Below are positions 21,535 to 41,685 of a DNA stretch of 64,000 nt, piece after piece; positions within the stretch are counted from its first letter, which is position 1, and the number at the start of each line of letters is the position of its first letter. The stretch is taken from positions 310,001 to 374,000 of the forward strand of contig NZ_CP054052.1 of assembly GCF_013283835.1 (NCBI RefSeq), read 5' to 3'. The notes under the pieces are model-generated. The model had not been told where the DNA came from. It searched no databases and saw nothing but the letters and a program-made list of their open reading frames with translations. A program made the translations under genes and the position numbers. This DNA is from Poseidonibacter lekithochrous. GTDB lineage: Bacteria; Campylobacterota; Campylobacteria; Campylobacterales; Arcobacteraceae.

Positions 21535-22179
21535 ATGCAACAAAACAAAATCAAAAAATCTAAAACTCAAACAATTACAGAACAAGTATATGAACAACTA
21601 GAACATAAAATTGTATTCTGTGAAATTGAGCCTGGTAGTATTCTTACAGAAAAAGAAATTTGTACAATGATAGGTGCAGGTAGAACTCCTGTACATGAAG
21701 CATTATTACTATTATCAAGAAGATTTTTAGTTAACTTTTCAAAAGTAGGTATTATGATACCTGATATGAACTCTTCTGTTCAATTACAACTTTTAGAGAT
21801 GAGAAGACCAATTTTAAAAACATGTGTCGAGTGTGCTATTCAAAGACTAACACAAGTTGATAAAGACAATATAGAAGAGTTATTGGTTGATGTTGATGAT
21901 TTAGATGACCATGAATTCCTAAACTGGCTAGAGCTTAGACAAGAAGTTTTATCAAAAGCTTCAAAGAACTTCTTTATATATGAAGAACTTAGAAATGTAC
22001 AAGGATTATCAAGAAGATTCTGGCATTACTATGCAAAAAAAGAAGACAATATAGTTGTTAGAGAATTACATAAAAAGATTTTACAAGCTGTTTTTGATGA
22101 GAACAAAAATGATGCAGTAAAATATGTTGATGAAATTATTGACTATATTGAAAATTTTGTAAAAAAATACTCAATTTAA
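21535..22179 (+). CDS. GntR-family transcriptional regulator 1 (His in recognition helix)
   Basis: 214 residues. An N-terminal winged helix (about 12-75: TITEQVYEQLEHKIV, LTEKEICTMIGAGRTPVHEAL) is followed by a helical effector domain of the FCD type (about 90-214, with YEELRNVQGLSRRFWHYYA). It is clearly paralogous to the regulator at 34601, yet where GntR proteins and the paralogue have PVREAL it has PVHEAL (His54), at an Arg that contacts DNA in this family. It stands at the head of the porin-ridA block. Confidence 0.85.
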   Translation: MQQNKIKKSKTQTITEQVYEQLEHKIVFCEIEPGSILTEKEICTMIGAGRTPVHEALLLLSRRFLVNFSKVGIMIPDMNSSVQLQLLEMRRPILKTCVECAIQRLTQVDKDNIEELLVDVDDLDDHEFLNWLELRQEVLSKASKNFFIYEELRNVQGLSRRFWHYYAKKEDNIVVRELHKKILQAVFDENKNDAVKYVDEIIDYIENFVKKYSI

Positions 22180-22402: not shown

Positions 22403-23545
22403 GTGAATAAATTTAGTCTTAGTATAGTAGCAGCATTAGCAGTTTTTAATACAGCAAATGCAAGCAGTTTATCGGAAGCATTTTCAAATGGAAAAGTATC
22501 AGGTGAGTTAAAATCACAATTTTATCAAAAAGAAAGCAATAGTTCACAAACAGTGAATATTTGGACAAATGGTTTAAACCTTTCATATAATACAGCTGAT
22601 TATAATGGTTTAACTGCTGGAATAACATTTCAAGGTGCCTCAGTAACTTCTGAAGATTTAGGAGAAAATCCTACTGCATATAATGCAGACCAAAATGTTA
22701 GTGGGTCAGTTTTATCTCAAGCATTTATTGAATATAAAAAAGATAATACTACAGTGAAAGCAGGTAGACAATACTTAGCAACTCCATTAATTGCATCTTC
22801 TGGATCAAGAATCTTTAAAGAATCTTTTGAAGCAGCATCTGTAACAAATACTGATATAGCAGATACTTCAATTTCATTAATGTATGTAACTAAGTATCAA
22901 GGAAGAACTGATGGAAAAGAGGGTGCTCCTTCTTTTGAAAAATTAGGTGATGGAGTATTTTCTATTTACGCAACTAATAAATCAGTTAAAAACTTAAGTT
23001 TAGCAGCACAATATGTTAATGCTAAAAATTTAGTATCTAATAATACTAAAGATGTAAGTATTTATTACCTAAATGCAGAATATGATTTTAACGCATTTAA
23101 ATTAGGTGCACAATATTATGGTTCTGATGATGATGGTGCAGCTAACAATGATGGAAATGCATATGCTGTTAAAGCTTCAACAAAAATTGCAGACATATCT
23201 TTAGCTGCTTCATATAGTGAAGTTTCAAAAGATGGTGGAGTTGATGCCTGGCATTTAGGAAATGGTGCTGACTACATTTATACATGGAGTTGGTATGAAG
23301 GGTCTAGATATTCAGCAGATATGAAAGCAACAAAATTTGAAGCTGGTTATAAGTTCACAGATAAGTTATCTGCTAATGTTATGCATATAAGCTGGAAAAC
23401 AAGTACAAGTGATACTACTAAAGAAACAGACTATCTTGTAGATTATAAAGCTACTAAAGATCTTTCTTTTAGATTATTACATGGTCAATTTGATAATTCT
23501 GGTAACGAATACAGATCAAGATTATACGCATCTTATAAATTCTAA
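22403..23545 (+). CDS. Outer-membrane porin (Campylobacterota OprD-like type)
   Basis: 380 residues. A signal peptide (about 1-20, ending NTANA) is followed by a short segment SSLSEAFSNGKVSGELKSQF, the usual start of Campylobacterota porins, then alternating amphipathic strands. The chain ends in SYKF with a terminal Phe, the outer-membrane assembly signal. GAGAG RBS-like bases precede the start (written GTG at 22403). Its promoter carries the long palindromic operator, so it is probably the regulated entry route for the substrate of block A. The substrate cannot be read. Confidence 0.85.
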   Translation: MNKFSLSIVAALAVFNTANASSLSEAFSNGKVSGELKSQFYQKESNSSQTVNIWTNGLNLSYNTADYNGLTAGITFQGASVTSEDLGENPTAYNADQNVSGSVLSQAFIEYKKDNTTVKAGRQYLATPLIASSGSRIFKESFEAASVTNTDIADTSISLMYVTKYQGRTDGKEGAPSFEKLGDGVFSIYATNKSVKNLSLAAQYVNAKNLVSNNTKDVSIYYLNAEYDFNAFKLGAQYYGSDDDGAANNDGNAYAVKASTKIADISLAASYSEVSKDGGVDAWHLGNGADYIYTWSWYEGSRYSADMKATKFEAGYKFTDKLSANVMHISWKTSTSDTTKETDYLVDYKATKDLSFRLLHGQFDNSGNEYRSRLYASYKF

Positions 23546-23962: not shown

Positions 23963-24349
23963 ATGAGTAATACAAAAACACCAATTAAAACAGAATTATT
24001 TGCTTCTAAAGCACCATTAGAGTGGGCAATTACTGCCAACAATACTTTATACACTGCACAAATACCAATCGATGAGACTGGAAAAGTAGTTGAGGGTGGA
24101 ATTGAAGCTCAAACTAGAAAAACTTTTGAGAACTTAGTTCATACTTTAGAGTGTGCTGGAGTTTCTACAAATGAAGTATTACAAGTATTAATTTATGTTA
24201 CTGATAGGGAATATTTAGCTACAGTAAATAAAGTATATGCTGAGTATTTTGAAGCTCCATATCCAAATAGAGCAGCAGTTATAGTTGCAGGACTTGCAAG
24301 AGAAGAGATGCTTGTTGAGTTTGTTGTTTACGCGCAAGCTAGCAAATAA
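23963..24349 (+). CDS. RidA-family (YjgF/YER057c) enamine/imine deaminase-like protein
   Basis: 128 residues, the size of the trimeric Rid family. RidA enzymes hydrolyse reactive enamine/imine intermediates released by PLP or flavin enzymes. The key substrate Arg is present in PYPNRAAVIV (Arg103) and the end VEFVVYAQ is standard. Between 23944 and 23962 there is an AAAGGGAAA RBS. It is first in the run ridA-dehydrogenase-M19-BCCT, behind a strong palindromic operator. In catabolic clusters such Rid proteins often act on ring-opened or deaminated nitrogen compounds. Confidence 0.88.
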   Translation: MSNTKTPIKTELFASKAPLEWAITANNTLYTAQIPIDETGKVVEGGIEAQTRKTFENLVHTLECAGVSTNEVLQVLIYVTDREYLATVNKVYAEYFEAPYPNRAAVIVAGLAREEMLVEFVVYAQASK

Positions 24350-24383: not shown

Positions 24384-25832
24384 ATGACTTATAATTATGA
24401 AGAAGGTTTATACATTAACGGTTCATGGGCAAAAGGTGTTTCTACAATTGAAAATATCAACCCATCTGATATTTCAGAAAATATTGGAAACGTAGCACAA
24501 GCAAGTGTTGAGCAAGTAAATGAAGCAATCGCTGCTGCAAAAACTGCACAACCAGAATGGGAAAAAACTCCTTTAGAGCATAAAGTTAACGTACTTCAAG
24601 CAATTGGTGATGAACTAATTGAAAGATGTGTTGAACTTGGTGAGTTATTAGCTAGAGAAGAAGGTAAGTCAAAAGCAGAAGGTAAAGGTGAAATTTACAG
24701 ATCTGGTCAATTCTTCCAATATTATGCAGCTGAGGTTTTAAGACAAATTGGTGAAAATGCAGCATCTGTTAGACCTGGTATTGATATTGATGTTACTAGA
24801 GAAGCAGTTGGTGTTGTTGGTATTATCTCACCTTGGAATTTCCCTACTGCAACAGCAGCATGGAAAATTGCTCCTGCTTTAGCATTTGGTAATGCAGTAA
24901 TTTGGAAACCAGCTAATTTAACACCAGCATCTGCTGTTGCTTTAACTGAAATTATTCATAGACAAGGACTTCCAGCAGGTACATTTAACTTAGTATTAGG
25001 TTCTGGTGGAACAGTTGGTGATACATTAATTAACTCAAAAGAAATTAATGCAATTTCATTTACAGGTTCTGTTGAAACTGGTAGAAAAATTGCAGTAGCA
25101 ACTTCTGCAAACTTTGTTAAATGTCAGTTAGAAATGGGAAGTAAGAACTCACTAGTTGTTGCTTGCGATGCTGATATCTCTGTTGCTGTTGAAGCTGCAA
25201 TTGCTGGATCTTTTTCAGGTACTGGTCAAAAATGTACAGCATCTTCAAGATTAATTGTTATGGAATCTATCCATGATGAATTTGTAGAAGCACTAGTAAA
25301 AAGAATGGCTGAATTAAAAGTTGGACATTGTTTAGAAGATGGAATCTTTATGGGACCTGTTTCTGATAAAGCACAATTTGATTCAAACTTCAGATGGATT
25401 GAAAGAGCAAAAGAGCTTGGTGGTAAGTTAGCATTTGGTGGTGAGAAATTATCAATGGAAAAAGAAGGTTACTACATGAGCCCTACATTATTTGTTGATA
25501 CAAAAAATGATTGGGATGTTAACCAAGAAGAAGTATTTGCACCAATGGCTTGTGTAATTAAAGTTAAAGATTTAGAAGAAGCAATTGCAACTGCAAATGA
25601 TACAAGATTTGGATTAACAGCTGGAATTATTACTCAAAGTTTAAAAACTGCAGCTATTTTCAAAAAAGAAGCTCAAAGTGGTTGTGTTATGGTTAACCTT
25701 CCAACAGCAGGAACTGATTACCACGTTCCATTTGGTGGAAGAAAAGAATCAAGCTTTGGACCAAGAGAACAAGGTTCGTATGCAAAAGAGTTCTACACAA
25801 TTGTAAAAACAGCATACCAAAAACCTTACTAA
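24384..25832 (+). CDS. Aldehyde dehydrogenase, resembling 2-oxoglutarate semialdehyde dehydrogenase
   Basis: 482 residues, NAD(P)-dependent aldehyde dehydrogenase superfamily. The catalytic Cys is Cys284 in GQKCTASSR and the general base is Glu250 in QLEMGSKN. The segments ASVRPGIDIDVTREAVGVVG, ISPWNFPTATAAWKIAPALA and IWKPANLTPAS look most like the 2,5-dioxopentanoate (alpha-ketoglutarate semialdehyde) dehydrogenases, which would feed 2-oxoglutarate into the TCA cycle. Assignment below family level is tentative. It lies 34 bp after ridA with a GGAAGAA RBS. Confidence 0.9.
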   Translation: MTYNYEEGLYINGSWAKGVSTIENINPSDISENIGNVAQASVEQVNEAIAAAKTAQPEWEKTPLEHKVNVLQAIGDELIERCVELGELLAREEGKSKAEGKGEIYRSGQFFQYYAAEVLRQIGENAASVRPGIDIDVTREAVGVVGIISPWNFPTATAAWKIAPALAFGNAVIWKPANLTPASAVALTEIIHRQGLPAGTFNLVLGSGGTVGDTLINSKEINAISFTGSVETGRKIAVATSANFVKCQLEMGSKNSLVVACDADISVAVEAAIAGSFSGTGQKCTASSRLIVMESIHDEFVEALVKRMAELKVGHCLEDGIFMGPVSDKAQFDSNFRWIERAKELGGKLAFGGEKLSMEKEGYYMSPTLFVDTKNDWDVNQEEVFAPMACVIKVKDLEEAIATANDTRFGLTAGIITQSLKTAAIFKKEAQSGCVMVNLPTAGTDYHVPFGGRKESSFGPREQGSYAKEFYTIVKTAYQKPY

Positions 25833-25840
25833 GGAAAGAC

Positions 25841-26830
25841 ATGTATAAAGATCAAATTATTATTGATGGTTTACAATATTGTAAATGGGATAGAGAATAT
25901 TTCCTTTCTCTAAGAAAGAGTGGAATAACTGCTGTTCACGTTACACTTGTTTACCATGAAATGGCAAGAGAAACTTTAACACAGTTTGCACAGTGGAATA
26001 AACTTTTTGAATTAAATAGTGATTTGATCATGCCAGTAATGAATATGGCAGATGTTCAATTAGCTAAATCTACTGGCAAAGTAGGAATCTTCTTTGGAGC
26101 GCAAAACTGCTCTCCAATAGATGATGAAATCGGATTAATTGAGGTAATGAGAAAACAAGGTTTACTTATTATGCAATTAACATATAACAATCAAAGTTTC
26201 TTAGCAACTGGGTGTTATGAAAAGAACGATAGTGGAATTACTAGATTTGGTAAACAAGCTATTGCTGAAATGAATAGAGTTGGAATGATTATTGATATGT
26301 CTCATAGTGCAGAGCAATCTACACTTGAAGCTATTGATTTATCATCTAGACCTATTTGTATTTCACATGCAAATCCAATTTTTGCACATGATGCATTAAG
26401 AAATAAGTCAAACGAAGTGATTAAAGCATTAACTGCAAGAGGTGGGTTATTAGGATTCTCATTATATCCTTTCCATTTACCAAATGGTTCAGCTTGTACA
26501 TTAGATGATTTTTGTGAGATGATTGCAAAAACAGCTGATTTAGTAGGTGTTGATCATTTAGGAATTGGTAGTGATTTATGTCTGAATCAACCACAAGAAG
26601 TTTTAGAGTGGATGAGAAATGGAAAATGGTCAAAAGCTATGGACTATGGAGAAGGTTCTTCTTCAAATTCTGGATGGCCGGATGACTTACCTTGGTTCAA
26701 AGATGAGCATGGTATGGAAAATATTTATAATGGTTTAATTAAGTATGGATTTCAAGAGAAAGAAGCTAATCAAATTCTTGGCGGGAACTGGTTTAACTTC
26801 TTAAGCGACGGTTTAGAACCTAAAAATTAA
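25841..26830 (+). CDS. Membrane-dipeptidase (M19) homologue with incomplete metal site
   Basis: 329 residues of the renal dipeptidase/M19 fold, without signal peptide, so cytoplasmic. In M19 enzymes the first zinc is bound by His-x-Asp at the N-terminus (DGHxD) and a bridging Glu. Here the N-terminal motif reads DGLQY (Leu11, Tyr13) and the Glu region reads FFGAQN (about residue 87). The other ligands remain: His155 (DMSHS), His176 (ISHAN) and Asp245 (GIGSDL). This subfamily occurs beside betaine and N-methyl amino-acid catabolism genes in other bacteria, for example near dgcA in Pseudomonas, as I recall. It is probably not an ordinary dipeptidase. It starts 8 bp after the dehydrogenase. Confidence 0.85.
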   Translation: MYKDQIIIDGLQYCKWDREYFLSLRKSGITAVHVTLVYHEMARETLTQFAQWNKLFELNSDLIMPVMNMADVQLAKSTGKVGIFFGAQNCSPIDDEIGLIEVMRKQGLLIMQLTYNNQSFLATGCYEKNDSGITRFGKQAIAEMNRVGMIIDMSHSAEQSTLEAIDLSSRPICISHANPIFAHDALRNKSNEVIKALTARGGLLGFSLYPFHLPNGSACTLDDFCEMIAKTADLVGVDHLGIGSDLCLNQPQEVLEWMRNGKWSKAMDYGEGSSSNSGWPDDLPWFKDEHGMENIYNGLIKYGFQEKEANQILGGNWFNFLSDGLEPKN

Positions 26831-26894
26831 TCTTAAGAAATTAAGAATAACTTTTGGGTGATATTATCAAAAATATCATAAAAAGGATATGAAG

Positions 26895-28454
26895 ATGGAA
26901 ATATCTGACATTATAGAAAAAGAAGATACTTTAAAAGAGCAAAATCAAAAAGAACAAAAAGTTGATAAGTTAACTTTAGTTCTTAGTAGTGGTTTTTTAA
27001 TGGCATTCGTTGTTTTAGCATTAGTGGATACAAAGCTATTAAGCACTGTTGTAAATGGTGGATTTGGCTGGGCGACTAAATTTTTTGGTGCTTATTGGCA
27101 ATTCTTATTATTAGCAACTTTCCTAATCGGTATTGGACTTACTTTAGGAAGAACTGGTTCTGTTGTACTAGGTAATTCAGAGAAAACTGAAATGAGTACT
27201 TTCCAATGGATTGCAATTATCATGTGTACACTACTAGCAGGTGGTGGAGTTTTCTGGGCAGCTGGTGAACCTATTGCACACTTTGTTTCTCCTCCTCCAT
27301 TATATGGGGCTGAAACTGATTTATTCCAAAAAGCAGTAAATTCATTATCTCAATCATTTATGCACTGGGGATTCTTAGCTTGGGCAATTTTAGGTACTTT
27401 AACTGCAATTGTATTATCTCATTTGCATTATGATAAAGGTTTACCTTTAAAACCTAGAACTTTACTTTATCCTGTATTTGGAGATAAAGTTATTCATGGA
27501 CCATTAGGTTCTATTGTTGATGCATTTTGTATTGTTGCTGTTGCTGCTGGTACTATTGGGCCAATTGGTTTCTTAGGGTTACAAATTTCATATGCTTTAA
27601 ATGCATTATTTGGAATTGCAGATGGTTTTACAACACAAATGACTATTATTGTAATAGCAATTATAATTTATACAATATCTGCCTTAAGTGGATTAACAAG
27701 AGGTATTCAGATTTTATCTAGATGGAATATTATTTTAGCAATTGGTTTAATGCTTTTCATCTTTATTTTCGGACCAACAGCATTTATTATTGATGCGTAT
27801 ATTCAAGGTGTAGGTACATCAATCCAAAACTTCCTTCCAATGGCAACATTTAGAGGTGATACTGGATGGTTAAGTTGGTGGACAGTGTTCTTCTGGGGAT
27901 GGTTCTTAGGATATGGTCCTTTAATGGCTATTTTCATTGCAAGAATCTCAAGAGGAAGAACAATTAGAATGTTAATTTTAGCAGTGAGTATTTTCGCACC
28001 ACTAATTACAATGTTCTGGTTTACAATCGTTGGTGGTGCTGGATTATCATTTGAAATTGCACAACCAGGTGTTATTAGTGAAGCATTCAAAGGGTTTAAT
28101 TTACCTGCATCATTATTAGCTATTACACAATCATTACCATTCCCATTAATTACTTCAATATTATTCTTAATATTGACTACAGTATTTATTGTAACAACGG
28201 GAGATTCAATGACATATACAATGAGTGTTGTTGTAAGTGGTAGTACTGAGCCTAGTCCATACTTAAGAATGTTCTGGGGAGTATTAATGGGTGTATTAGC
28301 AATTATATTAATATCAATTGGATCAGGTGGTATCTCGGCATTACAATCATTTATTGTAATTACAGCTGTGCCAGTGTCACTTGTATTATTACCAGCACTA
28401 TGGAGTGCACCACAAATAGCTATTAAAATGGCAGACGAACAAGGTTTAAAGTAG
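26895..28454 (+). CDS. BCCT-family betaine/carnitine/choline-type transporter
   Basis: About 519 residues with twelve hydrophobic segments. BCCT carriers import trimethylammonium and related solutes with Na+ or H+. The family motifs are GGGVFWAAGEPIAHF (around 117) and the tryptophan-rich TM8 box LSWWTVFFWGWFLGYGP (around 327). There is no long charged C-terminal osmosensor tail, so a catabolic uptake role fits better than osmoprotection. I chose the second ATG (26895) since AAGG lies 8 bases upstream; the ATG at 26889 would leave only 2. A terminator follows. Confidence 0.9.
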   Translation: MEISDIIEKEDTLKEQNQKEQKVDKLTLVLSSGFLMAFVVLALVDTKLLSTVVNGGFGWATKFFGAYWQFLLLATFLIGIGLTLGRTGSVVLGNSEKTEMSTFQWIAIIMCTLLAGGGVFWAAGEPIAHFVSPPPLYGAETDLFQKAVNSLSQSFMHWGFLAWAILGTLTAIVLSHLHYDKGLPLKPRTLLYPVFGDKVIHGPLGSIVDAFCIVAVAAGTIGPIGFLGLQISYALNALFGIADGFTTQMTIIVIAIIIYTISALSGLTRGIQILSRWNIILAIGLMLFIFIFGPTAFIIDAYIQGVGTSIQNFLPMATFRGDTGWLSWWTVFFWGWFLGYGPLMAIFIARISRGRTIRMLILAVSIFAPLITMFWFTIVGGAGLSFEIAQPGVISEAFKGFNLPASLLAITQSLPFPLITSILFLILTTVFIVTTGDSMTYTMSVVVSGSTEPSPYLRMFWGVLMGVLAIILISIGSGGISALQSFIVITAVPVSLVLLPALWSAPQIAIKMADEQGLK

Positions 28455-28519: not shown

Positions 28520-30934
28520 ATGAGTAAAAATATTAATACAATCGAAAATTCACAATTAAGAGATTCAAGTGTGGTAATGGATTTAAAAAGAATGGGTGCA
28601 ATGCATCAATCTAGAATCAGTTTCACTAGAACTTTAATAAGAAAAATGGCAAATGAAAATTGGACTGTTACTAAATCTAAATGGGATTTATGTAAAGACG
28701 GTTATGGTACAGCTATTTACGAATTAAAAACACCAAACAATACATATAATGTAGTAATCTTTTCTAATCATATTGAAGATGATGAAAGAAATGATAGAGT
28801 TATTGCTGAAAAGTGGGATACAACATTTACATTAATTGATGGAGATGTAAGTGACACTTTATTAGATGCTCTAAGAAATAATGTACCACTTCAAGAAGCA
28901 GGAAGAAACTCAAATAGAGCTTTAGTACTTGCTCGTGCTAATAAATCTGTTAGAGTTTTCTCTCATGTAATTGACTCATTAGCTAAAGGTGAACAACCAA
29001 GCATTGAAGAAGTTTCAAAAGTTGGTTATATCCTAAGAACTACTGCTGTTTACGGTAGTGGTAAATTTGGAATTAATGATTATGCTGCACTAGGAAAAAA
29101 CCCAGACTTCTCTCAGTCTTTTTCTGCAGAAATGTGTGCTGTATATATCTTAAGACAATTCTCACTTGATTGGGCAAACTTTATTGCTAAAAATAAAGGT
29201 GGAGATAAAGCAGTATCTTTAGATAAAGATATTCAAAGATTCTTAGGAGTTGGTAATGCAACTGGTTTAGGAATGGCTCCATATTTAATTAGACACCCAA
29301 AAGTTGTTGATAATTGGTTATACCAAAGAGAATTAGCTTTAAGTAAAGTATCATTAGAAGAGATTACAAAAGAAAAATCAAAAGAATTAATTGCTTATTT
29401 AAATAGAGCAATTACACATTTAGAAGATGTAGTAACAATAAATGAACACCAAAAAGAATTAAATGTAAAAGCAGCTTTAGAGATTCCAAGTATTATTGAA
29501 TCAACAAATGAACTTCTTGGTAAAACATACAAAGAATTAATTCAAAGTACAACTAGTCTTTCTTTCGAAGCACAAGAAGTTCTTATTTCTTCAATTATTG
29601 AATTATATCCGCAACTTGTTGATTGTCATGAAAGTGAAATGAGAGTTGATGAACAACCATTAGAATTATCTGGGGTTACAATAGAAGCTTTAAAAGCTAA
29701 AATTCAATCTCATTATTCTTGGGCTTTAAAATATGATTTCTCAAAAGAGAAAAGTAATTATTGGTTCTGGTATGTATCAGAAGATAAAGGTGAACCAAGA
29801 TTAGGAATTAGAAATGTAGATAAGGGTGCTGAATTAGAATTGCCTTTAGATATAGCTAGACAAGTATCTAAATTAAATAAAATTTTAGTAGATATTTCAA
29901 ATGAAGAAGCAGTAACTAAGTTCTTATTAGAAAACCCTCAATACTCATCTATTATTAGAAGAATTTGGACTATGGGTGCTTGTAAAATGGGTGAAATTCA
30001 AGCTAATGTAATTGATGAAGAATTTTTACCAATGGATTTATTAAGAGCTAAACTTGCTATGTTTGGAGCAACTAAATTTGATCCAAGATCAGATAGATGG
30101 GTTCAAGTTACTTTCTTCCAAAGTGCGCCACTAGTTGATGAGGTTCATAATGGTGAGTGGTTATTCCCTCAAATTCCAAAAAGTAAAGATGATAGATTAA
30201 ATGTAGAAAGTGGAAAAATTTCTGTTTCAAGAACAGAGTTAGCAACTATGTGTAATAACGCATTTAATGGTCTTAAAAGAGATTCAGGAGAAGCAGATTT
30301 AATTTCTAAAATGGTTGTTGATTTAGAGATGGTTGGATTAAATGGAGTTAAACATTTTGCAAATGCATTAAAGTATTTAAAAAATTCTAATAACTTATCA
30401 TTAAATATTTCATCAGAAGGTTCTCATATTACTGCTGATTTAAATAATGACACAATTTTAGGACATATTCAAATTTTAGTAGCTTACGCATTAGAATCAG
30501 TTCCTAATTATGAAACTGTAACTTTAGAGATTAAAAATTGTCACAATAGATGGTTAGTATTCTCTCAAGCACTAAGAATTGCTAAAAAAGGTCTAAATGC
30601 TAGATTCTCTTGGAATAATTCATCAGATAATGGGAAAATCTCATACTGCATAAATGCTAATGATGATTTACCAACAGTTTGTAACAGTACAACTGATAGT
30701 TCAGATGTTAGATCTTTAACAATTGAAATTAGTAAAAACAAAATAGAAAGTACTTGTGATAGTGCTGAAGTTATTAGCTCTCAAACTTTACAAAAGTCAT
30801 TTAATAATGCAGTTGAAAATGGTTTAGTTATCAATTTAAATGATTGGAATGATTTAAAAGAAGTTGCAAAAGCTATTTATGTTGCATCAAGTGAAACTTC
30901 ACGAAATGATGCTGGTGGAGTAGTAGAGAAATAA
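28520..30934 (+). CDS. 804-residue protein of unknown function, partner of YdeP-like oxidoreductase
   Basis: I cannot assign this to a characterised family. It has no signal peptide and no membrane segment, so it is probably cytoplasmic. Conserved-looking blocks are the N-terminal HQSRISFTRTLIRKMANENW (about 29-48), QRFLGVGNATGLGMAPYLIR (about 240-259), YSWALKYDFSKEKSNYWFWY (about 393-412), and a region around 485-545 rich in Arg, Trp and Pro (IWTMGACKMGEIQ, DRWVQVTFFQSAP). A GGAGAGAG RBS precedes the ATG. It ends 2 bp before the molybdopterin oxidoreductase, so the two are almost certainly co-translated and probably work together. Similar blocks occur, as far as I recall, in uncharacterised proteobacterial proteins. 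Confidence 0.75.
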   Translation: MSKNINTIENSQLRDSSVVMDLKRMGAMHQSRISFTRTLIRKMANENWTVTKSKWDLCKDGYGTAIYELKTPNNTYNVVIFSNHIEDDERNDRVIAEKWDTTFTLIDGDVSDTLLDALRNNVPLQEAGRNSNRALVLARANKSVRVFSHVIDSLAKGEQPSIEEVSKVGYILRTTAVYGSGKFGINDYAALGKNPDFSQSFSAEMCAVYILRQFSLDWANFIAKNKGGDKAVSLDKDIQRFLGVGNATGLGMAPYLIRHPKVVDNWLYQRELALSKVSLEEITKEKSKELIAYLNRAITHLEDVVTINEHQKELNVKAALEIPSIIESTNELLGKTYKELIQSTTSLSFEAQEVLISSIIELYPQLVDCHESEMRVDEQPLELSGVTIEALKAKIQSHYSWALKYDFSKEKSNYWFWYVSEDKGEPRLGIRNVDKGAELELPLDIARQVSKLNKILVDISNEEAVTKFLLENPQYSSIIRRIWTMGACKMGEIQANVIDEEFLPMDLLRAKLAMFGATKFDPRSDRWVQVTFFQSAPLVDEVHNGEWLFPQIPKSKDDRLNVESGKISVSRTELATMCNNAFNGLKRDSGEADLISKMVVDLEMVGLNGVKHFANALKYLKNSNNLSLNISSEGSHITADLNNDTILGHIQILVAYALESVPNYETVTLEIKNCHNRWLVFSQALRIAKKGLNARFSWNNSSDNGKISYCINANDDLPTVCNSTTDSSDVRSLTIEISKNKIESTCDSAEVISSQTLQKSFNNAVENGLVINLNDWNDLKEVAKAIYVASSETSRNDAGGVVEK

Positions 30935-30936
30935 CA

Positions 30937-33180
30937 ATGGAAAATCAACATCTAAACGTTAAATCAGCTGGTGGATGGGGTGCATTAATATCATCTGGAA
31001 AATTCTTAATGAGAGAGGGCTTTTTAAAAGGCTCTCAAACATTATTTAGACTAAATCAAGTTGAAGGATTTGATTGTCCAGGTTGTGCATGGCCAGACCC
31101 AGAAGATAGTGAACGATCAATGACTGAGTTTTGTGAAAATGGAGTAAAAGCAATTGCTTTTGAAACTACAAATAAAAGAGCTTCTAGTGAGCTTTTTTCA
31201 CAAAAAACAGTGTCAGAACTAAATGAACTTGATGTTTATTCAATAACAAATCAGGGGCGTTTAACTGAGCCTTTTTATTACAATAGAGCTAAAGATAAAT
31301 ATGAACCTATTTCTTGGGATAGCGCTTTTGAAGTAGTATCTAAACATTTAAAAAGTTTAGAAAAACCTGATGATGCAATTTTTTATACATCAGGTAGAAC
31401 ATCTAATGAAGCAGCATTTTTATACCAACTAATGGGAAGAATGTTAGGGACAAACAATTTCCCTGATTGTTCAAACATGTGTCATGAAAGCTCTGGTGTT
31501 GGAATGGGTGAATCAGTTGGAATTGGAAAAGGAACAGTATCTTTAGAAGATTTTGATAAAGCTGAGTTAATTATGATTTTTGGGCAAAACCCAGGAACAA
31601 ATCACCCTAGAATGTTAAGTGAATTACAAAAAGCTAATAAAAGAGGTGCGAAGATAGTATCTATCAACCCTTTAAAAGAAGCTGGTTTAGTATCTTTTGT
31701 TCATCCACAAGACGTGGGTCAAATGCTTACTAATAAAGCAACACCTATTAGTACAAATTATTACCAAGTAAAACTAGGTAGTGATATGGCTTTAGTTCAA
31801 GCAATTGTGAAATATATTTTAGAAAACTATTCAATAACTTTAGATTTAGAGTTTATAGAAAAACACACTGCTGGATTTGAAGAGTATAAAAAACAGATTC
31901 TTTCAAAAGATTGGAATGAATTAGTAAAACAAACTTCTTTAAGCAAAGAAGAGATTATAGAAATAGCTGAACTTTATGTTGAGTCAGATAAAACTATTTG
32001 TTGTTGGGCTATGGGATTAACACAACATGAACACGGTGTTGCAACAATTGAAGAAGTAATGAATCTATTATTACTAAAAGGTAATATTGGAAAAGAAGGA
32101 GCTGGTGCTTGTCCTGTAAGAGGTCATAGTAATGTACAAGGTGATAGAACTGTAGGAATTTCAGAAGCTCCAAAAGAAGATTTCTTACAAAAAATTGATA
32201 GTGTATTTAACTTTAAAAGTCCAAGATCTCATGGTTATGATGTGGTTCATGCTATTAAAGCAATGCATAAAGAGAAAAATAAAGTATTTATAGGTCTTGG
32301 TGGTAATTTTGCCGATGCTGCACCTGATACAAAAATTACATATGAGGCTTTAGAGTCTTGTAATTTAACTGTACATATTTCTACGCATTTAAATAAAAGT
32401 CATTTAATATGTGGAAAAGAAGCACTGATTTTACCATGTCTTGGAAGAACAGAGTTAGATATCCAACAAAATGGTGTACAAAGTGTTACTGTTGAGGATT
32501 CAATGAGTATGGTTCATCCTTCAAAAGGAAGAAATACTCCAGCCTCTAGAGATTTAAAATCAGAACCTGCAATTATTGCAGGAATTGCCGATGCAACATT
32601 TGGTAAAGAAAAAGTTGATTTTATAGATTTAATTAGTGATTACAATAAAATTAGAGAAAAGATTGAAGAAGTATTGCCAACTTTTACATCTTATAATGCC
32701 TCAATGGAGAGTAAAACTGGACTTGAGTTATATAACTCTGCAAGAAATAGAGTTTGGGAAACAGAAACGAAAAAAGCTAATTTCCTTGTAAATATTGCTC
32801 CTGATTTAACTCTAGATGAAAATCACTTGTCTTTAATGACTATGAGATCTCATGACCAGTTTAATACAACTGTATATGATACAAATGATAGATATCGTGG
32901 AATAAAGAATAAAAGAAAAATTATCTTCTTAAATGAGAAAGATATTAAAAAACTCGGACTTAAAAATGGGGAGTTTGTAAATATTCAATCTCACAGTAAA
33001 GATGAAATAAAAAGAGAAGTTTTAAATTTTGAAGTAGTAGCTTATGATATTAAAGAAGGATGTGCTGGGGCTTATTTCCCAGAAGCAACACCTTTAGTTT
33101 CAATTAATCATTTTGATAAAAAGAGTTTCACTCCTTCATATAAATTTATTGATATTACTTTAGAGAAAGTGAATAAATAA
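30937..33180 (+). CDS. FdhF/YdeP-family molybdopterin oxidoreductase
   Basis: 747 residues, DMSO-reductase superfamily. The N-terminus has the YdeP-type motif FDCPGCAWPDP with Cys47 and Cys50, and Cys66 in EFCENGVKA. The probable metal ligand Cys is in DCSNMCHESSG (about 190). Molybdopterin-binding stretches are GQNPGTNHPRM and MGLTQHEHGVAT, and the C-terminal domain has SHDQFNTTVYD. No Tat signal is present, so the protein is cytoplasmic. YdeP relatives have no firm physiological reaction; formate is a possible substrate by relation to FdhF. It follows the 804-residue protein by 2 bp and precedes a winged-helix gene by 9 bp. Confidence 0.85.
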   Translation: MENQHLNVKSAGGWGALISSGKFLMREGFLKGSQTLFRLNQVEGFDCPGCAWPDPEDSERSMTEFCENGVKAIAFETTNKRASSELFSQKTVSELNELDVYSITNQGRLTEPFYYNRAKDKYEPISWDSAFEVVSKHLKSLEKPDDAIFYTSGRTSNEAAFLYQLMGRMLGTNNFPDCSNMCHESSGVGMGESVGIGKGTVSLEDFDKAELIMIFGQNPGTNHPRMLSELQKANKRGAKIVSINPLKEAGLVSFVHPQDVGQMLTNKATPISTNYYQVKLGSDMALVQAIVKYILENYSITLDLEFIEKHTAGFEEYKKQILSKDWNELVKQTSLSKEEIIEIAELYVESDKTICCWAMGLTQHEHGVATIEEVMNLLLLKGNIGKEGAGACPVRGHSNVQGDRTVGISEAPKEDFLQKIDSVFNFKSPRSHGYDVVHAIKAMHKEKNKVFIGLGGNFADAAPDTKITYEALESCNLTVHISTHLNKSHLICGKEALILPCLGRTELDIQQNGVQSVTVEDSMSMVHPSKGRNTPASRDLKSEPAIIAGIADATFGKEKVDFIDLISDYNKIREKIEEVLPTFTSYNASMESKTGLELYNSARNRVWETETKKANFLVNIAPDLTLDENHLSLMTMRSHDQFNTTVYDTNDRYRGIKNKRKIIFLNEKDIKKLGLKNGEFVNIQSHSKDEIKREVLNFEVVAYDIKEGCAGAYFPEATPLVSINHFDKKSFTPSYKFIDITLEKVNK

Positions 33181-33189
33181 GGAAATAAA

Positions 33190-33609
33190 GTGAGTGTTTT
33201 AAATTCAAGAATTGACGGATTGGAGTATATTAAAAATATTGAAGAAAAATTTATTAATATTAAAATCCCTCTTTCTCTTGAAAATCAGTTAATTATTGAA
33301 AACTTTTTTAATGAACTTCAAGAAGTTAATTTAAAAGAGTTAGTTAGTAATTGGTTTATTGATGAAAAGAACTGTGCTGTAATTAGTCCTGATAAAACTT
33401 ATTATTTAACTAAAAGAGAGTTGGTTTTTACACAACTATTATTAAAAAATAGAATTGTTACTTATGAACAGATGTCATACTATATCTGGGAGTGTAAATC
33501 AAATATAACTCAAAATGCTATTAAGAGTTTTGTAAAAAATTTTAAGAAGAAGATGCCCCCGTCAATTCTTAAAAATGTTAATGGTATAGGGTATAGGTTC
33601 TTAGCCTAA
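33190..33609 (+). CDS. Winged-helix (OmpR/PhoB-type) DNA-binding protein without receiver
   Basis: 139 residues. The C-terminal 75 residues have the OmpR-type winged helix: YYLTKRELVFTQLLLKNRIV, MSYYIWECKSNITQNAIKSF, then NVNGIGYRFLA at the end. The first 60 residues are not a receiver domain: there is no phospho-acceptor Asp pocket and the region is too short. The start is GTG with a GGAAATAA spacer. It sits between the YdeP-like enzyme and a solute-binding protein. It may be a local regulator that answers a ligand or partner protein instead of a kinase. Confidence 0.7.
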   Translation: MSVLNSRIDGLEYIKNIEEKFINIKIPLSLENQLIIENFFNELQEVNLKELVSNWFIDEKNCAVISPDKTYYLTKRELVFTQLLLKNRIVTYEQMSYYIWECKSNITQNAIKSFVKNFKKKMPPSILKNVNGIGYRFLA

Positions 33610-34600: not shown

Positions 34601-35242
34601 ATGAAGAATAAACTAAAACGAGAAAAAAATAAAACAATGACAGAACAAGTTTATGAAAAACTTGAAGATCTTATTGTATTTTGTGAAATAGAACCAGGAA
34701 CGGTTTTAACAGAAGCTGAGATATCTGAAATGGTTGGAGCTGGTAGAACACCTGTTCGAGAAGCTTTACGATTATTAGCAAATGAATCTTTAGTTAATAT
34801 CTCTAGAATTGGGGTATTAATTCCTGAAATGAGTGGCTCTACTCAACTTCAATTATTAGAAGTAAGACGAGCAATACTACAACTATGCGTAAAATCTGCA
34901 ATTGATAGACTAACAGAATTAGATAAAAAAAGCCTACAAGAATTAGTAAATATTGTTGATGAACAAGATGATGTTGAATTTTTACATTGGTTAAAAGAGA
35001 GACATAGAATCTTAGCTAAATGTTCAAAAAATCAATTTATATATGAAGAATTACGAAATGTACAAGGTCTATCTCATAGATTCTGGTATTACTATGCTAA
35101 AAAAGATGACCATCAAAAAGGTAAAGTTTTACATAAAAAAATTCTAGAAGCTGTAATTGATCAAGATAAAGAATCTGCTGCAAAATATGTAGATGATTTA
35201 ATTGATTACTTAGAAGCATTTGTAAGAAGTCATGCTATTTAA
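34601..35242 (+). CDS. GntR-family transcriptional regulator 2
   Basis: 213 residues, paralogue of the regulator at 21535. Winged helix (about 11-75: TMTEQVYEKLEDLIV, ISEMVGAGRTPVREALRLL, with the standard Arg53) and an FCD-like helical effector domain (YEELRNVQGLSHRFWYYYA, LHKKILEAVIDQDKESA). The strong conservation of YEELRNVQGLS and FWxYYAKK between the paralogues suggests related effectors. It precedes the TRAP operon, and the same 21-bp operator occurs before both, so control of that operon is likely. Confidence 0.88.
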   Translation: MKNKLKREKNKTMTEQVYEKLEDLIVFCEIEPGTVLTEAEISEMVGAGRTPVREALRLLANESLVNISRIGVLIPEMSGSTQLQLLEVRRAILQLCVKSAIDRLTELDKKSLQELVNIVDEQDDVEFLHWLKERHRILAKCSKNQFIYEELRNVQGLSHRFWYYYAKKDDHQKGKVLHKKILEAVIDQDKESAAKYVDDLIDYLEAFVRSHAI

Positions 35243-35268
35243 AGAGTAAACATATAAGTTTGCTCTTT
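35241..35268. terminator. Terminator after GntR regulator 2
   Basis: An 11-bp stem (AAAGAGTAAAC at 35241-35251, GTTTGCTCTTT at 35258-35268, one G-U pair) overlaps the stop codon. It is followed by a short T-containing stretch. Confidence 0.6.
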
Positions 35269-35389
35269 ATACTTTCTAATTAAAACTAAACAAAAAATCT
35301 ATAAAAATTCATATTTGAGCTTATTTAAGCCAATAAAATATTAAAATAACATATATAACTATTTCTAGTATATTTTTTGTATATATTCT

Positions 35390-35410
35390 AAATATATCTT
35401 AAGTATATTT
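35390..35410. promoter_or_regulatory. AT-rich palindromic operator, copy 3 (before dctP)
   Basis: AAATATA-N7-TATATTT with the centre TCTTAAG, 50 bases before the dctP ATG. It differs from copy 1 at two central positions only. Related half-sites lie just upstream (35370-35386). Probable binding site of GntR regulator 2. Confidence 0.5.
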
Positions 35411-35460
35411 TAAGTTAATGAGGCGTATACTGACATTATATAAACTATAAAGGAAGAGAT

Positions 35461-36513
35461 ATGTTTAGAAACAAATTACTAGGAACAGCGTGTGCGTTAT
35501 TATTAGGTGCGGTATCATTAAGTGCAGAGACTTGGAAGTTTGCCAGTGAAGAGGCAAAAAAAGATGTTCAAGATATCTATGCTCAAGAATTTGCAAAAGT
35601 AGTAAAAAAAGAGTCTAATGGAAAAATTAAAGTTAGAATCTATTATTACGGACAACTTGGTGGTGAAAATGACATTGTTGAATTAACTTCAAATGGTTCA
35701 ATCAACTTTGTATCTGTAGGAACTGGTCACTTAGGTTCATACGTACCTGAAGTTCAATCAATTTCAATTCCATACGTATTAACTAATAATGAAGATGCAG
35801 CTTACGAAGTATTAACTACAAGTAAAACTATCTATAATGATTTAGCTCCAAAATTCAAAAAAGCTAATTTAAAACTTTTATCAATGATTTCTGAGGGTGA
35901 AATGGCATGGGGTGCAAATAAACCTATTAGAACTCCAGAAGATTTCGCAGGACAAAAAATCAGAACATTTACATCTACAATTCCAGTAGAAACATACAAA
36001 GCATTCGGTGCAGTTCCAACTCCATTATCATGGGGAGAAGTTTACTCTTCTTTACAATTAGGAACAGTTGATGGTATGGTAAATCCAATGTACTTCATTT
36101 ACAATGCTAAATGGCACATGGTTCAAAAATACATTATGTTCCCAGGTCAACAACCATATATTGGAACAATTTCAACAAATGCAAAATGGTTTGCTAAACA
36201 AACTCCAGAAAAACAAGCAATTATTAATAAGGCTATCAAAGCAGCAAATAAAGCAGCATTTGAATACCAAAAGAAAATTAACAAAGAAAATACAGCAAAA
36301 ATGTTAGAAGAAAACAAAGAGTTAAAACTTATTACTTTAACTGAAGCTGAGAGAGCAAAATTTAAAGATATTAGTAAATCTTTACATGGAACATTCTTAG
36401 ATGTAGTAGCTAAAGCTTATCCAGATGATAAAAAAGAACAAGCTAAATCAGACGCTAAAAAAATCTTAAATAACTTAATTCAAGAAGTAAAAGACGCTGA
36501 AAGCAGACACTAA
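35461..36513 (+). CDS. dctP: TRAP transporter solute-binding protein (DctP family)
   Basis: 350 residues with a signal peptide (about 1-22, ending LSAE). DctP proteins bind small acids or zwitterions in the periplasm and pass them to DctQM. The family Arg that holds the ligand carboxylate is in KIRTFTSTIPVETYKAFGA (about 160), and the signature PLSWGEVYSSLQLGTVDGMV (about 183-202) is clear. A GGAAGAGAT RBS precedes the ATG. The membrane subunits follow after one intervening gene. In ectoine clusters the equivalent gene is uehA/teaA. Confidence 0.93.
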   Translation: MFRNKLLGTACALLLGAVSLSAETWKFASEEAKKDVQDIYAQEFAKVVKKESNGKIKVRIYYYGQLGGENDIVELTSNGSINFVSVGTGHLGSYVPEVQSISIPYVLTNNEDAAYEVLTTSKTIYNDLAPKFKKANLKLLSMISEGEMAWGANKPIRTPEDFAGQKIRTFTSTIPVETYKAFGAVPTPLSWGEVYSSLQLGTVDGMVNPMYFIYNAKWHMVQKYIMFPGQQPYIGTISTNAKWFAKQTPEKQAIINKAIKAANKAAFEYQKKINKENTAKMLEENKELKLITLTEAERAKFKDISKSLHGTFLDVVAKAYPDDKKEQAKSDAKKILNNLIQEVKDAESRH

Positions 36514-36515
36514 AT

Positions 36516-36539
36516 AAAAGCCCCTCTCGGGGTTTTTTT
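36516..36539 (+). terminator. Terminator/attenuator between dctP and the EutA-like gene
   Basis: A GC-rich stem CCCC-TCTC-GGGG (36521-36532), extended by A-T pairs, is followed by seven T. It lies inside the presumed operon and would let the abundant binding protein be made in excess over the membrane subunits. Confidence 0.8.
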
Positions 36540-36547
36540 AAGGAAAA

Positions 36548-37318
36548 ATGATGGAAATAAAAGTAATAAATAGCGAACTTAAGAATACAATTTCTCACAA
36601 TGGAAAAATAGGTTTAATACTTCTTGCAACAGATCAAATCACATTATATGAATTTGAAGCAATTTTAAAAGACACTGGAGTTTTATGTTTCCCTTCACGG
36701 GTAATGATGGATTCAGTTGAATTAACACCAGAAGTTTTAATGGCAATAAAAAATGAATTAGCAAGTGCAACTAATACTATCCTTCCCGGACTGACTTTAG
36801 ATGTGGTAGCACTTTCATGTACTTCTGCTTCTATGACAATTGGAGAAGATGAAGTTGCAAGAATTATTAAACAAAGTGATACAAAAAGAGAAATAAAAGA
36901 AGTAACAAATCCGTACACAGCAATTAAAAATGCTTGTGAGTTTTTAAATGTAAATGAGTTAGGAGTAATTACTCCATACAGCATAGAAGTTACACAAGGT
37001 ATTTTAGATGGAATGGAACCTAATATTAAAACTATTAGTGCTGCAACATTTAATAACCCAAATGACAATTTAGTTCCAAGTATTACTCCTGAGTCTATAA
37101 AAGATGCAGTAATTCAAATGGCAAAAGATGAAAATATTAAAACAATTTTTGTTTCTTGTACAAATTTAAATATCTGTAGATATATAGATGAATTAGAAGA
37201 AATTACTGGGAAGAGAATCTTAACAAGTAACCAAGTTATGGCTTGGGACATTTTAAGATTAGCAAATTATAAAAAACCAATTTTAGGTTTTGGTTCACTT
37301 TTTAAGGAAGAAAGATAA
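36548..37318 (+). CDS. EutA/maleate-isomerase-like enzyme (Asp/Glu racemase superfamily)
   Basis: 256 residues. The paired catalytic cysteines of the Asp/Glu racemase superfamily are present: Cys91 in ALSCTSASM and Cys204 in FVSCTNLN. The N-terminal GKIGLILLATDQITLYEFE is the pattern of maleate isomerases, arylmalonate decarboxylases and the EutA protein of ectoine clusters. Its place inside a TRAP operon with an M24 hydrolase and a fold-II PLP enzyme is like ectoine-utilisation clusters, so I favour the EutA-like reading. A second ATG at 36551 has better RBS spacing. Confidence 0.75.
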   Translation: MMEIKVINSELKNTISHNGKIGLILLATDQITLYEFEAILKDTGVLCFPSRVMMDSVELTPEVLMAIKNELASATNTILPGLTLDVVALSCTSASMTIGEDEVARIIKQSDTKREIKEVTNPYTAIKNACEFLNVNELGVITPYSIEVTQGILDGMEPNIKTISAATFNNPNDNLVPSITPESIKDAVIQMAKDENIKTIFVSCTNLNICRYIDELEEITGKRILTSNQVMAWDILRLANYKKPILGFGSLFKEER

Positions 37319-37319
37319 T

Positions 37320-37871
37320 ATGAAAAATGTATTGGCAAGAGTAAATTCCATTACTGCAAAAGTAGAAAAGGTAATTTTATCTTTATCTATTTTGCTAATG
37401 ATGATTAATACAACTGCAAATGCTTTAGGAAGATATATCTTCAACCAAAGTATATATTTTTCTGAGGAATTAAATCAGTTTTTAATGGTATCCGTGACAT
37501 TTGTTGGTTTAGCTTATGCAGTAAGAAATGGTAGAAATATCAGAATGACTGCTATTTATGACGCGTTAAGTCATAAAAAGAAAAAGTTCTTAATGATTAT
37601 TATTGCAATTTCTACATCAATGTTGATGTTTTTATTAGCTTATGAAGCTTATAACTATGTAATGCAATTAAAAGAGATAAACAGATTAAGTCCAGCACTT
37701 CAAATAGAAGTTTATTTAGTATATATGATTGTACCTATTGGATTTTTTATGTCGGGAGTTCAGTTCTTCATTAGGTTTATTCAAAACCTGTTACATGATG
37801 AGATTTATCTTTCTTATGATGTTATTGAAGAGAAAGATTGTGATTCAAATATAGGAGATCAAGCATGTTAG
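37320..37871 (+). CDS. dctQ: TRAP transporter small membrane subunit (DctQ family)
   Basis: About 183 residues with four membrane segments (near 20-38, 50-65, 90-110 and 130-150) and the DctQ motif FNQSIYFSEELNQFLMVSVTFVG (read in two parts; the Glu pair is typical). I start it at ATG 37320 since AAGGAAG lies 8 bases upstream; an in-frame TTG at 37290 inside the previous gene is less likely. It overlaps dctM by 7 bp. Confidence 0.9.
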   Translation: MKNVLARVNSITAKVEKVILSLSILLMMINTTANALGRYIFNQSIYFSEELNQFLMVSVTFVGLAYAVRNGRNIRMTAIYDALSHKKKKFLMIIIAISTSMLMFLLAYEAYNYVMQLKEINRLSPALQIEVYLVYMIVPIGFFMSGVQFFIRFIQNLLHDEIYLSYDVIEEKDCDSNIGDQAC

Positions 37872-39202
37872 AATTTTTACAAAATGTGTTAAATGGCGAG
37901 CTTGATGTATATGTTATTACTTTTGCCCTATTAGCAGTAATGGTAGTACTTCTATTTTTAAGTTTCCCAATGGTTGTTCCTTTAACGGTTGCAACAATGG
38001 TAGGGTTTTTACATTTTTCAGATTTACCTCTGCAAAATATAATTCAGCAAATGATTACAGGTATTACACCAAATGCACTAATAGCAATTCCAATGTTTAT
38101 TTTTGCGGCAGATATTATGACCAGGGGTCATACGGCTACAAGATTACTAGATTTAATTGAAGTATTTATTGGTCACTACAGAGGTGGATTACCAATTACA
38201 ACTTGTATTTCATGTACATTATTTGGTTCAGTTTCAGGTTCTACTCAAGCAACAGTTGTATCTGTTGGTTCAATTATGAGACCTAAACTTTTAAAAGCTG
38301 GATATAAAGATAATTTTATTCTTGGACTTATAATTAATGCAAGTGATATTGCTTGGTTAATTCCACCAAGTATTGGTCTTATTTTATATGGAGTTTTAGC
38401 AAATGCAAATATTGCTGAATTGTTCATTGCAGGAATTGGTCCAGGTCTTATTTTAACAGGTCTATTTTCAGTTTATTGTTACATTTATTCTGTAATGCAT
38501 CAAGATGAAATTACATTAGCACCAAAAAAAGATTGGTCTGCTAGATTTCAAGCAGTTAAAAAATCAATTTTACCAATGGGATTCCCAGTACTAATTGTAG
38601 GTGGGATTTACTCAGGAGCATTTACTCCAACAGAAGCAGCAGCCTTCTCAGTATTGTATGCAATTATATTAGAAGTTGTAATTTATAGGAAATTAGGACT
38701 ATCTGATTTAATTGATTCATCATTAAGTACAGGGCTTATTACAGCAGTTGTATTTATCCTTGTTGGTGCGGGTCAAGCCTTCTCTTGGTATATCTCATTT
38801 GAGATGATTCCTCAAGAGTTACTTGGAGCACTTGATTTAGAAAATGCAAGTCCTGAGTTTATACTATTTGTTATCTCAGTAGCATTTGTTGTTGGATGTA
38901 TGTTTGTTGATTCAATTGTTGTATTACTGATTTTAACACCAGTATTTATGCCAATTATTGATTCATCAGGAATTGATCCAGTTTTAGTTGGAGTTGTAAT
39001 TACTTTACAAATGGCAATTGGTTCGGCAACGCCACCATTTGGATGTGATATTTTTACTGCCATTGCGGTATTTAAAAAATCATATATGCAAGTAATTTCT
39101 GGAATATTGCCATTCTTCTTAATACTAATGTTGATGTCAGCGATTTTAATATTCTTCCCTGATTCAGCTCTGTTCTTAAGAGATATAGCATTCGATAAGT
39201 AA
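37865..39202 (+). CDS. dctM: TRAP transporter large membrane subunit (DctM family)
   Basis: 445 residues with about twelve membrane segments. DctM forms the Na+-coupled transport core. Family signatures: IPMFIFAADIMTRG, TCTLF-like ISCTLFGSVSGSTQATVVSVG, PPSIGLILYGVLA and SATPPFGCDIFTA. It overlaps dctQ by 7 bp and ends 38 bp before the PLP enzyme gene. Together with dctP it is a complete tripartite carrier. Confidence 0.94.
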   Translation: MLEFLQNVLNGELDVYVITFALLAVMVVLLFLSFPMVVPLTVATMVGFLHFSDLPLQNIIQQMITGITPNALIAIPMFIFAADIMTRGHTATRLLDLIEVFIGHYRGGLPITTCISCTLFGSVSGSTQATVVSVGSIMRPKLLKAGYKDNFILGLIINASDIAWLIPPSIGLILYGVLANANIAELFIAGIGPGLILTGLFSVYCYIYSVMHQDEITLAPKKDWSARFQAVKKSILPMGFPVLIVGGIYSGAFTPTEAAAFSVLYAIILEVVIYRKLGLSDLIDSSLSTGLITAVVFILVGAGQAFSWYISFEMIPQELLGALDLENASPEFILFVISVAFVVGCMFVDSIVVLLILTPVFMPIIDSSGIDPVLVGVVITLQMAIGSATPPFGCDIFTAIAVFKKSYMQVISGILPFFLILMLMSAILIFFPDSALFLRDIAFDK

Positions 39203-39240
39203 AAAAATAAAATAAAAATAAAAAGTTAAGGAATAACATC

Positions 39241-41684: not shown

Positions 41685-41685
41685 G

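Follow-up and report, generated by a model that had tools for sequence, protein, structure and literature searches.

The 804-residue protein encoded at positions 28520-30934 (+) of the window (the whole 64,000-nucleotide stretch of Poseidonibacter lekithochrous DNA that was analysed) is a natural fusion of two proteins that are usually separate and that together make up a widespread module; the pathway to which this module belongs has probably been reported already. The explanation I favour for the operon as a whole, with somewhat better than even confidence, is the catabolism of homarine, through uptake, opening of the ring, release of formate, an exit by way of RidA, and oxidation of the formate. 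The computational observations on which I draw are the fusion itself, two predicted folds, a conserved gene cluster, the mutual exclusion of RidA and Ldh/Mgd genes, a genome with neither Ldh_2 nor a close MgdB, and an active site like that of formate dehydrogenases (FDHs).

The Operon and Its Surroundings

The window sits in a genome of 3.57 Mb on a single contig. A first-pass annotation had placed the 804-residue open reading frame 2 bp ahead of a 747-residue frame for an oxidoreductase (30937-33180, +), with genes for RidA, a semialdehyde-type dehydrogenase and a BCCT carrier nearby. The coordinates were confirmed, and Pfam confirms the families, all encoded upstream on the same strand along with an M19 protein that the annotation had not mentioned. 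In order, the genes encode a RidA-family imine/enamine hydrolase (23963-24349, +), found in the same position in all five Campylobacterota loci; an aldehyde dehydrogenase (ALDH; 24384-25832, +), whose nearest curated models are 2-oxoglutarate-semialdehyde dehydrogenase types, with scores below their cut-offs; a "membrane dipeptidase"-like amidohydrolase of family M19 (25841-26830, +; nearest solved chain 2i5g); and a betaine-type carrier of the BCCT family (26889-28454, +).

A GntR-family regulator (21535-22179, +), with an ortholog upstream of RidA in L019, L020 and L022 and none seen in L021, likely controls the operon. Between regulator and operon lies a gene for an Opr-family porin (22403-23545, +), present in L022 too. 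Directly after the oxidoreductase gene comes one for a stand-alone winged-helix protein (33190-33609, +) that has a Trans_reg_C domain and no receiver domain, possibly the last gene of the operon; an ortholog (73%) follows the corresponding oxidoreductase gene in L022, and none was found when sought in L019. Among the matches listed, the named organism whose operon comes closest is Poseidonibacter ostreae (L022), with identities to the window of 83% for the 804-residue protein, 79.7% for the oxidoreductase and 96% for RidA.

The M19 protein starts IIIDGLQYCKWD, where 2i5g has VIDGLIIAKWN. M19 dipeptidases carry a His-x-Asp metal motif at this position. In the window's protein the metal centre may be altered, and the reaction may be another one.

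A second catabolic cluster, at 34601-42852, appears to serve the utilisation of a diamino compound or of one resembling ectoine. It encodes a paralog of the GntR regulator (sharing about 60% identity with it), a TRAP carrier, an EutA/arylmalonate-decarboxylase-like protein, a diaminopropionate ammonia-lyase, a YgeY-type hydrolase (600 bits against a cut-off of 321.5) and a creatinase-like protein of family M24 with distant similarity to ectoine hydrolase. It is present in P. ostreae too, up to the YgeY-type gene, where the sequence of that locus ends.

Two Proteins in One Frame

Relatives of the protein were collected in 144 loci: 80 from a genome scan, 40 and 14 from two even draws within classes, six from plasmids, and four from Campylobacterota (the window included). 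The genome scan kept the best 80 of at least 582 relatives (on at least 591 stretches) and is therefore biased in favour of the window's nearer relatives. The first draw gave 40 regions from 38 of 53 matching genomes, and the second 14 of 16. A separate DUF3726 gene lies directly beside the long gene in 127 of the loci, the two are fused in six (five Campylobacterota loci and one Rhodoferax metagenome-assembled genome, L082), and no DUF3726 was detected in 11. Of 168 plasmid records with a relative, six were examined, and in these it appears as a "hypothetical protein" of about 560 aa with an adjacent DUF3726 protein. Within the window, residues 1-555 (28520-30184, +; hereafter the long part) correspond to the separate gene of about 560 codons in most relatives, and residues 556-804 (30185-30934, +) to the DUF3726 gene. 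The Rhodoferax gene (L082:8386-10746) joins the same two proteins and on the tree is distant from Campylobacterota.

The first-pass annotation could name no family for the protein. That stands for residues 1 to about 560, which have no significant Pfam match in the window's protein or in 50 relatives scanned and no significant match in the PDB. It does not stand for residues 569-633, which match DUF3726 (PF12525; E 5.1e-13, 49.1 bits against a gathering score of 22.1), the only family Pfam finds in the protein. Searches at E ≤ 0.1 gave no match of the whole protein to NCBIfam and none to PF02615 (Ldh_2). The block that had been singled out as conserved-looking, QRFLGVGNATGLGMAPYLIR, proves real: G243, G245, N246, T248-P254 and H259 are invariant in an alignment of 51 sequences. 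Profile search and structure prediction, the checks proposed at that stage, gave the DUF3726 part an Ldh_2-like fold and left the long part without a convincing fold match. A mixed alignment of both parts was dropped, the short genes having been misaligned onto the long part, and the two were folded separately.

The model of the DUF3726 part (pLDDT 90.4) matches 1wtj_B with a Foldseek E of 8.7e-9, with 27 matches at E ≤ 0.001. VIA Z values are 14.4-18.6 for 15 entries of Ldh_2 fold, and the next best is 4.7. By this model, the part is predicted to fold like the type-2 malate/lactate dehydrogenases (Ldh_2). An hhalign comparison of the DUF3726 profile with three Ldh sequences (probability 2%) speaks against kinship in sequence, but it is outweighed by a weak match of the profile to YiaK (E 0.002) together with the fold matches. 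The catalytic Ser-His-Gly (SHG) motif of Ldh_2 is lost: in 41 aligned sequences, the column of its His, the catalytic residue of YiaK, holds N in 15, D in 11, H in four and G in four. No paper on DUF3726 turned up in the literature library searched.

The long part, folded with 51 sequences, gave a model with pLDDT 89.8 and pTM 0.90. Its best matches to solved structures have a Foldseek E of 0.18 and a VIA-align Z of 4.8, with the whole part as query; a missing match is not proof of a new fold. Kinase-like Foldseek matches (E about 1-5, TM about 0.1) were set aside as noise, as were the 11 matches from a profile search of solved structures, ten of which are T-cell-receptor chains (best E 0.15). 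Among the nearly invariant polar and aromatic residues of the long part, Arg, Trp, Tyr, Asp, Glu, Asn, Gln, Ser and Thr predominate; there is a single His, and Cys is absent. Since these conserved residues contain no recognisable flavin, haem or metal motif, it is stoichiometry alone that would make the long part an oxygenase.

Homologues of the long part are present in 53 of 385 genomes drawn from the class of one alphaproteobacterial genome and in four of 298 sampled from the phylum Campylobacterota, the window's own included. On a tree of the long part, the five Campylobacterota form one clade (support 99), nested in a clade (support 100) that otherwise consists of Vibrionaceae, Shewanella, Moritella and Psychrobacter. 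This rarity and this nesting make transfer between Campylobacterota and those groups likely, in either direction. A distant relative of the long part (29%) lies at L141:7399-10922, near ABC-carrier-like genes. It is accompanied by an M19 gene (39%) and by a neighbour of 254 aa that was not recognised as DUF3726, and may belong to a sister system acting on a different substrate.

Neighbours of the Relatives

Neighbouring genes were detected by BLAST against 34 seed sequences, and divergent ones are therefore missed, as in the loci where DUF3726 was not detected. They were counted within 7 kb in the 117 loci that have flanks of 5.5 kb or more in both directions (the full-flank loci). M19 is near in 113 of these, DUF3726 in 109, ALDH in 80, BCCT in 66, RidA in 54, Ldh in 22, Mgd-like genes in 13 and a gene like that of the oxidoreductase in three. 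A LysR gene lies near the cluster in 70 of the 113 full-flank loci outside Campylobacterota. Vibrio sp. THAF190c provides an example: a divergent LysR gene is followed by RidA-ALDH-M19-BCCT-long-DUF3726, the same order as in the window.

The Mgd-like (sarcosine-oxidase-like) genes adjoin the cluster in Ruegeria sp. TM1040, Phaeobacter and Roseateles, where they are annotated as "sarcosine oxidase" subunits, and also in SAR11-like single-cell genomes and Halieaceae. TM1040 and Phaeobacter have a gene for an HTH regulator between the mgd-like genes and the cluster. In many strains, R. pomeroyi among them, a homologue of tmaR (AraC-type) adjoins the mgd operon, according to passages of PMC13390433.

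RidA and Ldh/Mgd genes are never found together in the full-flank loci at identity cut-offs to the seeds of 60% for RidA, 34% for Ldh and 34-40% for Mgd: 54 loci have RidA only, 30 Ldh/Mgd only, and 33 neither. When the cut-offs are relaxed, both appear within 7 kb in two loci (L016 and L065, RidA plus a generic match of 23-26%) and over whole loci in four (L015, L016, L039 and L065, all from matches of 23-29%). Because the loci are related, changes of label were also counted on a tree of 97 rows (60 RidA and 37 Ldh/Mgd, including short-flank loci, with identical rows for L079 and L135). Seven changes are needed, six of them forced by starred branches. Examples of such swaps are L105, with RidA among loci of the TM1040/Phaeobacter type, and L086, with Ldh among RidA-type Oceanospirillaceae.

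For a comparison at the level of genomes, 37 of the 80 scanned loci were chosen and L084 was left out. A homologue of MgdB/sarcosine-oxidase beta (E ≤ 1e-60), a query that cannot separate N-methylglutamate dehydrogenase from sarcosine oxidase, is missing in 17 of 29 RidA-type genomes and in none of seven others (Fisher p 0.008). The 12 RidA-type genomes that do carry one may use it for other substrates. The genome of the window has no match to Ldh_2 at E ≤ 0.001, and its best match to MgdB has 24% identity.

That they do not occur together at the cut-offs given suggests that RidA and Ldh/Mgd offer two different exits from a single imino intermediate. Most simply, 2-(methylimino)glutarate would be the compound that each of them disposes of, with RidA hydrolysing it to 2-oxoglutarate and methylamine. 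If this is right, RidA is the only exit left to the genome of the window, in which neither Ldh_2 nor a close MgdB was found.

A Proposed Route for Homarine

The assignment to homarine comes from the Mgd-like neighbours in Roseobacters, SAR11-like cells and Halieaceae. Mgd takes part in homarine catabolism according to a passage of PMC13390433 (citing Ferrer-Gonzalez et al. 2026), and homarine is described in PMC12817926 as occurring in diatoms and being drawn down quickly by R. pomeroyi. Passages of these two papers, PMC9723723 and PMC9038784 name no homarine genes besides Mgd, and a search of the same literature library on homarine genes gave no paper describing them in its title or the start of its abstract.

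I infer the substrate, each reaction and the order of the steps from gene content and a count of carbons. To pass from homarine to the skeleton of N-methylglutamate, ring carbon C6 must be lost. Cleavage between C5 and C6 leaves a formyl group on the nitrogen and an aldehyde at C5, which provides jobs for both ALDH and M19 and produces formate. The BCCT carrier would thus take up homarine (N-methylpicolinate), and the 804-residue fusion of two ring-attacking proteins would cleave the C5-C6 bond with O2 and reducing equivalents to give an N-formyl-N-methylamino semialdehyde. ALDH would oxidise C5. Deformylation by the M19 amidohydrolase would release formate and yield 2-(methylamino)pent-2-enedioate/2-(methylimino)glutarate, which RidA would hydrolyse as above. 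Elsewhere in bacteria, Ldh would reduce the same compound to N-methylglutamate for Mgd. The oxidoreductase would oxidise the formate to CO2. The first-pass annotation had suggested an uncharacterised enzyme system, perhaps with formate or a one-carbon group split off. Such a system, catabolic and including a protein of unknown fold, is supported, and formate is plausible as its by-product.

The first step might instead be reductive, with the DUF3726 part binding NAD(P)H as in Ldh_2 and the long part dearomatising the N-methylpyridinium ring before hydrolysis. The strong fold matches of DUF3726 to Ldh_2 and the want of a recognised metal or flavin signature among the conserved residues of the long part would suit such a step. 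However, the column of the Ldh_2 catalytic His is not conserved (H in four of 41), and reduction plus hydrolysis would presumably keep C6, giving a six-carbon (2-aminoadipate-type) skeleton that fits poorly with Mgd-like neighbours. I regard a reductive opening as rather unlikely.

Many alphaproteobacterial loci have the long gene, mostly accompanied by M19 and DUF3726, and no nearby ALDH of the type in the window (it is near in 10 of 36 with full flanks). Other substrates besides homarine are therefore conceivable for the core, and the 33 full-flank loci with neither RidA nor Ldh/Mgd near also weigh against the homarine route. Rieske-type oxygenase genes lie close by in some loci, and the carrier beside the core differs from locus to locus, being BCCT, OpuABC-type or none recognised. 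Such variety would be expected if the architecture and the role of formate were as proposed and the substrate of this operon were another betaine-type or N-methylated cyclic compound, homarine being one of several for the core module. I find this distinctly doubtful for the window, given that the ALDH-M19-BCCT-RidA block is kept whole from Vibrio to Campylobacterota and that the Mgd-like neighbours elsewhere fit a product with the N-methylglutamate skeleton.

If homarine is the substrate, then a widespread protein with no known fold match opens its ring; Vibrio, Psychrobacter, Marinobacter and Arcobacteraceae would be expected to give off methylamine and formate when they degrade it; and in Roseobacters and SAR11-like cells the nitrogen would stay in N-methylglutamate. 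A bolder form of the proposal, which I advance tentatively and would not yet bet on, is that the long part represents a new fold class that opens the N-methylpyridinium ring with a partner derived from Ldh_2, the partner having lost its own chemistry and serving as a nicotinamide or structural subunit. Homarine catabolism would then have two interchangeable ends, a reductive one that leads to glutamate through Ldh and Mgd and a hydrolytic one in which RidA yields 2-oxoglutarate and free methylamine, and lineages would repeatedly have exchanged the one for the other. The fold of the long part and the pattern of two exits are the parts most worth following.

The Molybdopterin Oxidoreductase and Formate

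The 747-residue protein passes the FdhF/YdeP model TIGR01701 (919.7 bits, cut-off 582.15, residues 11-743) and misses NF007406, the narrow equivalog of E. coli YdeP (764.7 against 1473 bits). Aligned to 1aa6 (formate dehydrogenase H, FdhF), it reads NMCHESSG against ARV(Sec)HGPS and PVRGHSNVQG against PVRGQNNVQG, placing its Cys-His with the Sec-His of FdhF and keeping the Arg of PVRGxxNVQG. The Sec/Cys, His and Arg are active-site residues of formate dehydrogenases, and the aligned site is compatible with that activity.

In Pseudomonas putida, deletion of PP_0256-57 strongly lowers formate tolerance, an effect that was complemented, and deletion of PP_4596 lowers it mildly; passages of the same report call PP_0256 and PP_4596, both of the FdhF/YdeP family, FDHs (PMC10308882). 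The initial statement that YdeP-type enzymes have no firm physiological reaction was therefore too strong. The FDH-like site and these family members make formate oxidation the most likely role of the window's enzyme, which is probably a formate dehydrogenase burning the formate of the pathway. The operon would then supply a specific setting in which an FdhF/YdeP-type enzyme acts in that capacity.

The enzyme is a lineage-specific addition to the operon. Its gene occurs within 7 kb in three of the 144 loci, all three full-flank and Arcobacteraceae-like: the window, L019 and L022. L020 has an operon that is otherwise complete, which makes the gene dispensable, and L021 ends at a contig edge. 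The genomes of both give only partial matches of 29-30% at E ≤ 1e-20, in a frame with one in-frame TGA that is selenocysteine-molybdoenzyme-like. The first-pass annotation had taken the 804-residue protein and the oxidoreductase for a dedicated pair and had proposed counting how often their genes are neighbours; homologues mostly stand apart from the oxidoreductase gene, an outcome that the annotation itself had named as refuting, and a dedicated pair is not supported by the count. That the two form one dedicated enzyme complex, as their spacing might suggest (2 bp in the window, 13 bp in L019, 64 bp in L022), is accordingly very improbable, with just three of 117 full-flank loci having both and with operons lacking the oxidoreductase gene in L020 and in Vibrio sp. 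THAF190c, where none occurs across 20 kb around the operon.

FDH-like genes lie near the cluster in eight of the 144 loci, in four lineages, which is not clearly above a rough, guessed background, and no enrichment beyond Campylobacterota is claimed. FDH alpha subunits in L051, L061 and L080 exceed the cut-off of TIGR01591, and the FDH-like proteins of L053 and L066 fall below it (482.8 and 473.5 of 666.25). Another molybdopterin oxidoreductase in the window's own genome (L002, C1:1377873-1379225; open frame of 946 aa, one in-frame TGA) looks like a selenocysteine formate dehydrogenase.

Comparison with Known Systems

The oxidoreductase resembles the FDHs of the FdhF/YdeP family (P. putida PP_0256 and PP_4596, M. 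extorquens Fdh4A) in scoring above the TIGR01701 cut-off and in the aligned Cys-His and Arg. It differs in that its activity is predicted, in falling below the E. coli YdeP equivalog cut-off and in belonging to a betaine-type catabolic operon. The DUF3726 part shares a predicted fold with Ldh_2 enzymes such as YiaK and DpkA, but it has about 250 residues where they have about 340, and it has lost the SHG motif.

In the trigonelline degradation system of Acinetobacter baylyi, tgnABCDE, a flavin two-component oxygenase opens the ring of an N-methylpyridinium carboxylate. The logic is the same as that proposed here (opening of the ring, an N-formyl intermediate, an aldehyde dehydrogenase, release of formate and methylamine), and the use of a flavin two-component oxygenase is a difference. 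The two systems are not known to have a ring-attack protein in common.

A six-gene homarine operon of marine bacteria, homABCDER, is said to have been described by Ferrer-Gonzalez et al. in Nat Microbiol in 2026. Its reported five enzymes and one regulator fit in number the LysR, ALDH, M19, 560-aa (approximately), DUF3726 and Ldh genes of TM1040 and Phaeobacter. The clusters of the relatives resemble it further in their Rhodobacterales and SAR11-like hosts and, in 13 of the 117 full-flank loci, in a link to Mgd-like genes that is not seen in the window. The operon of the window, in a genome with no Ldh_2 match or close MgdB homologue, differs in having the ring-attack genes fused, RidA present, a GntR rather than a LysR regulator, and an added enzyme of the FdhF/YdeP type.
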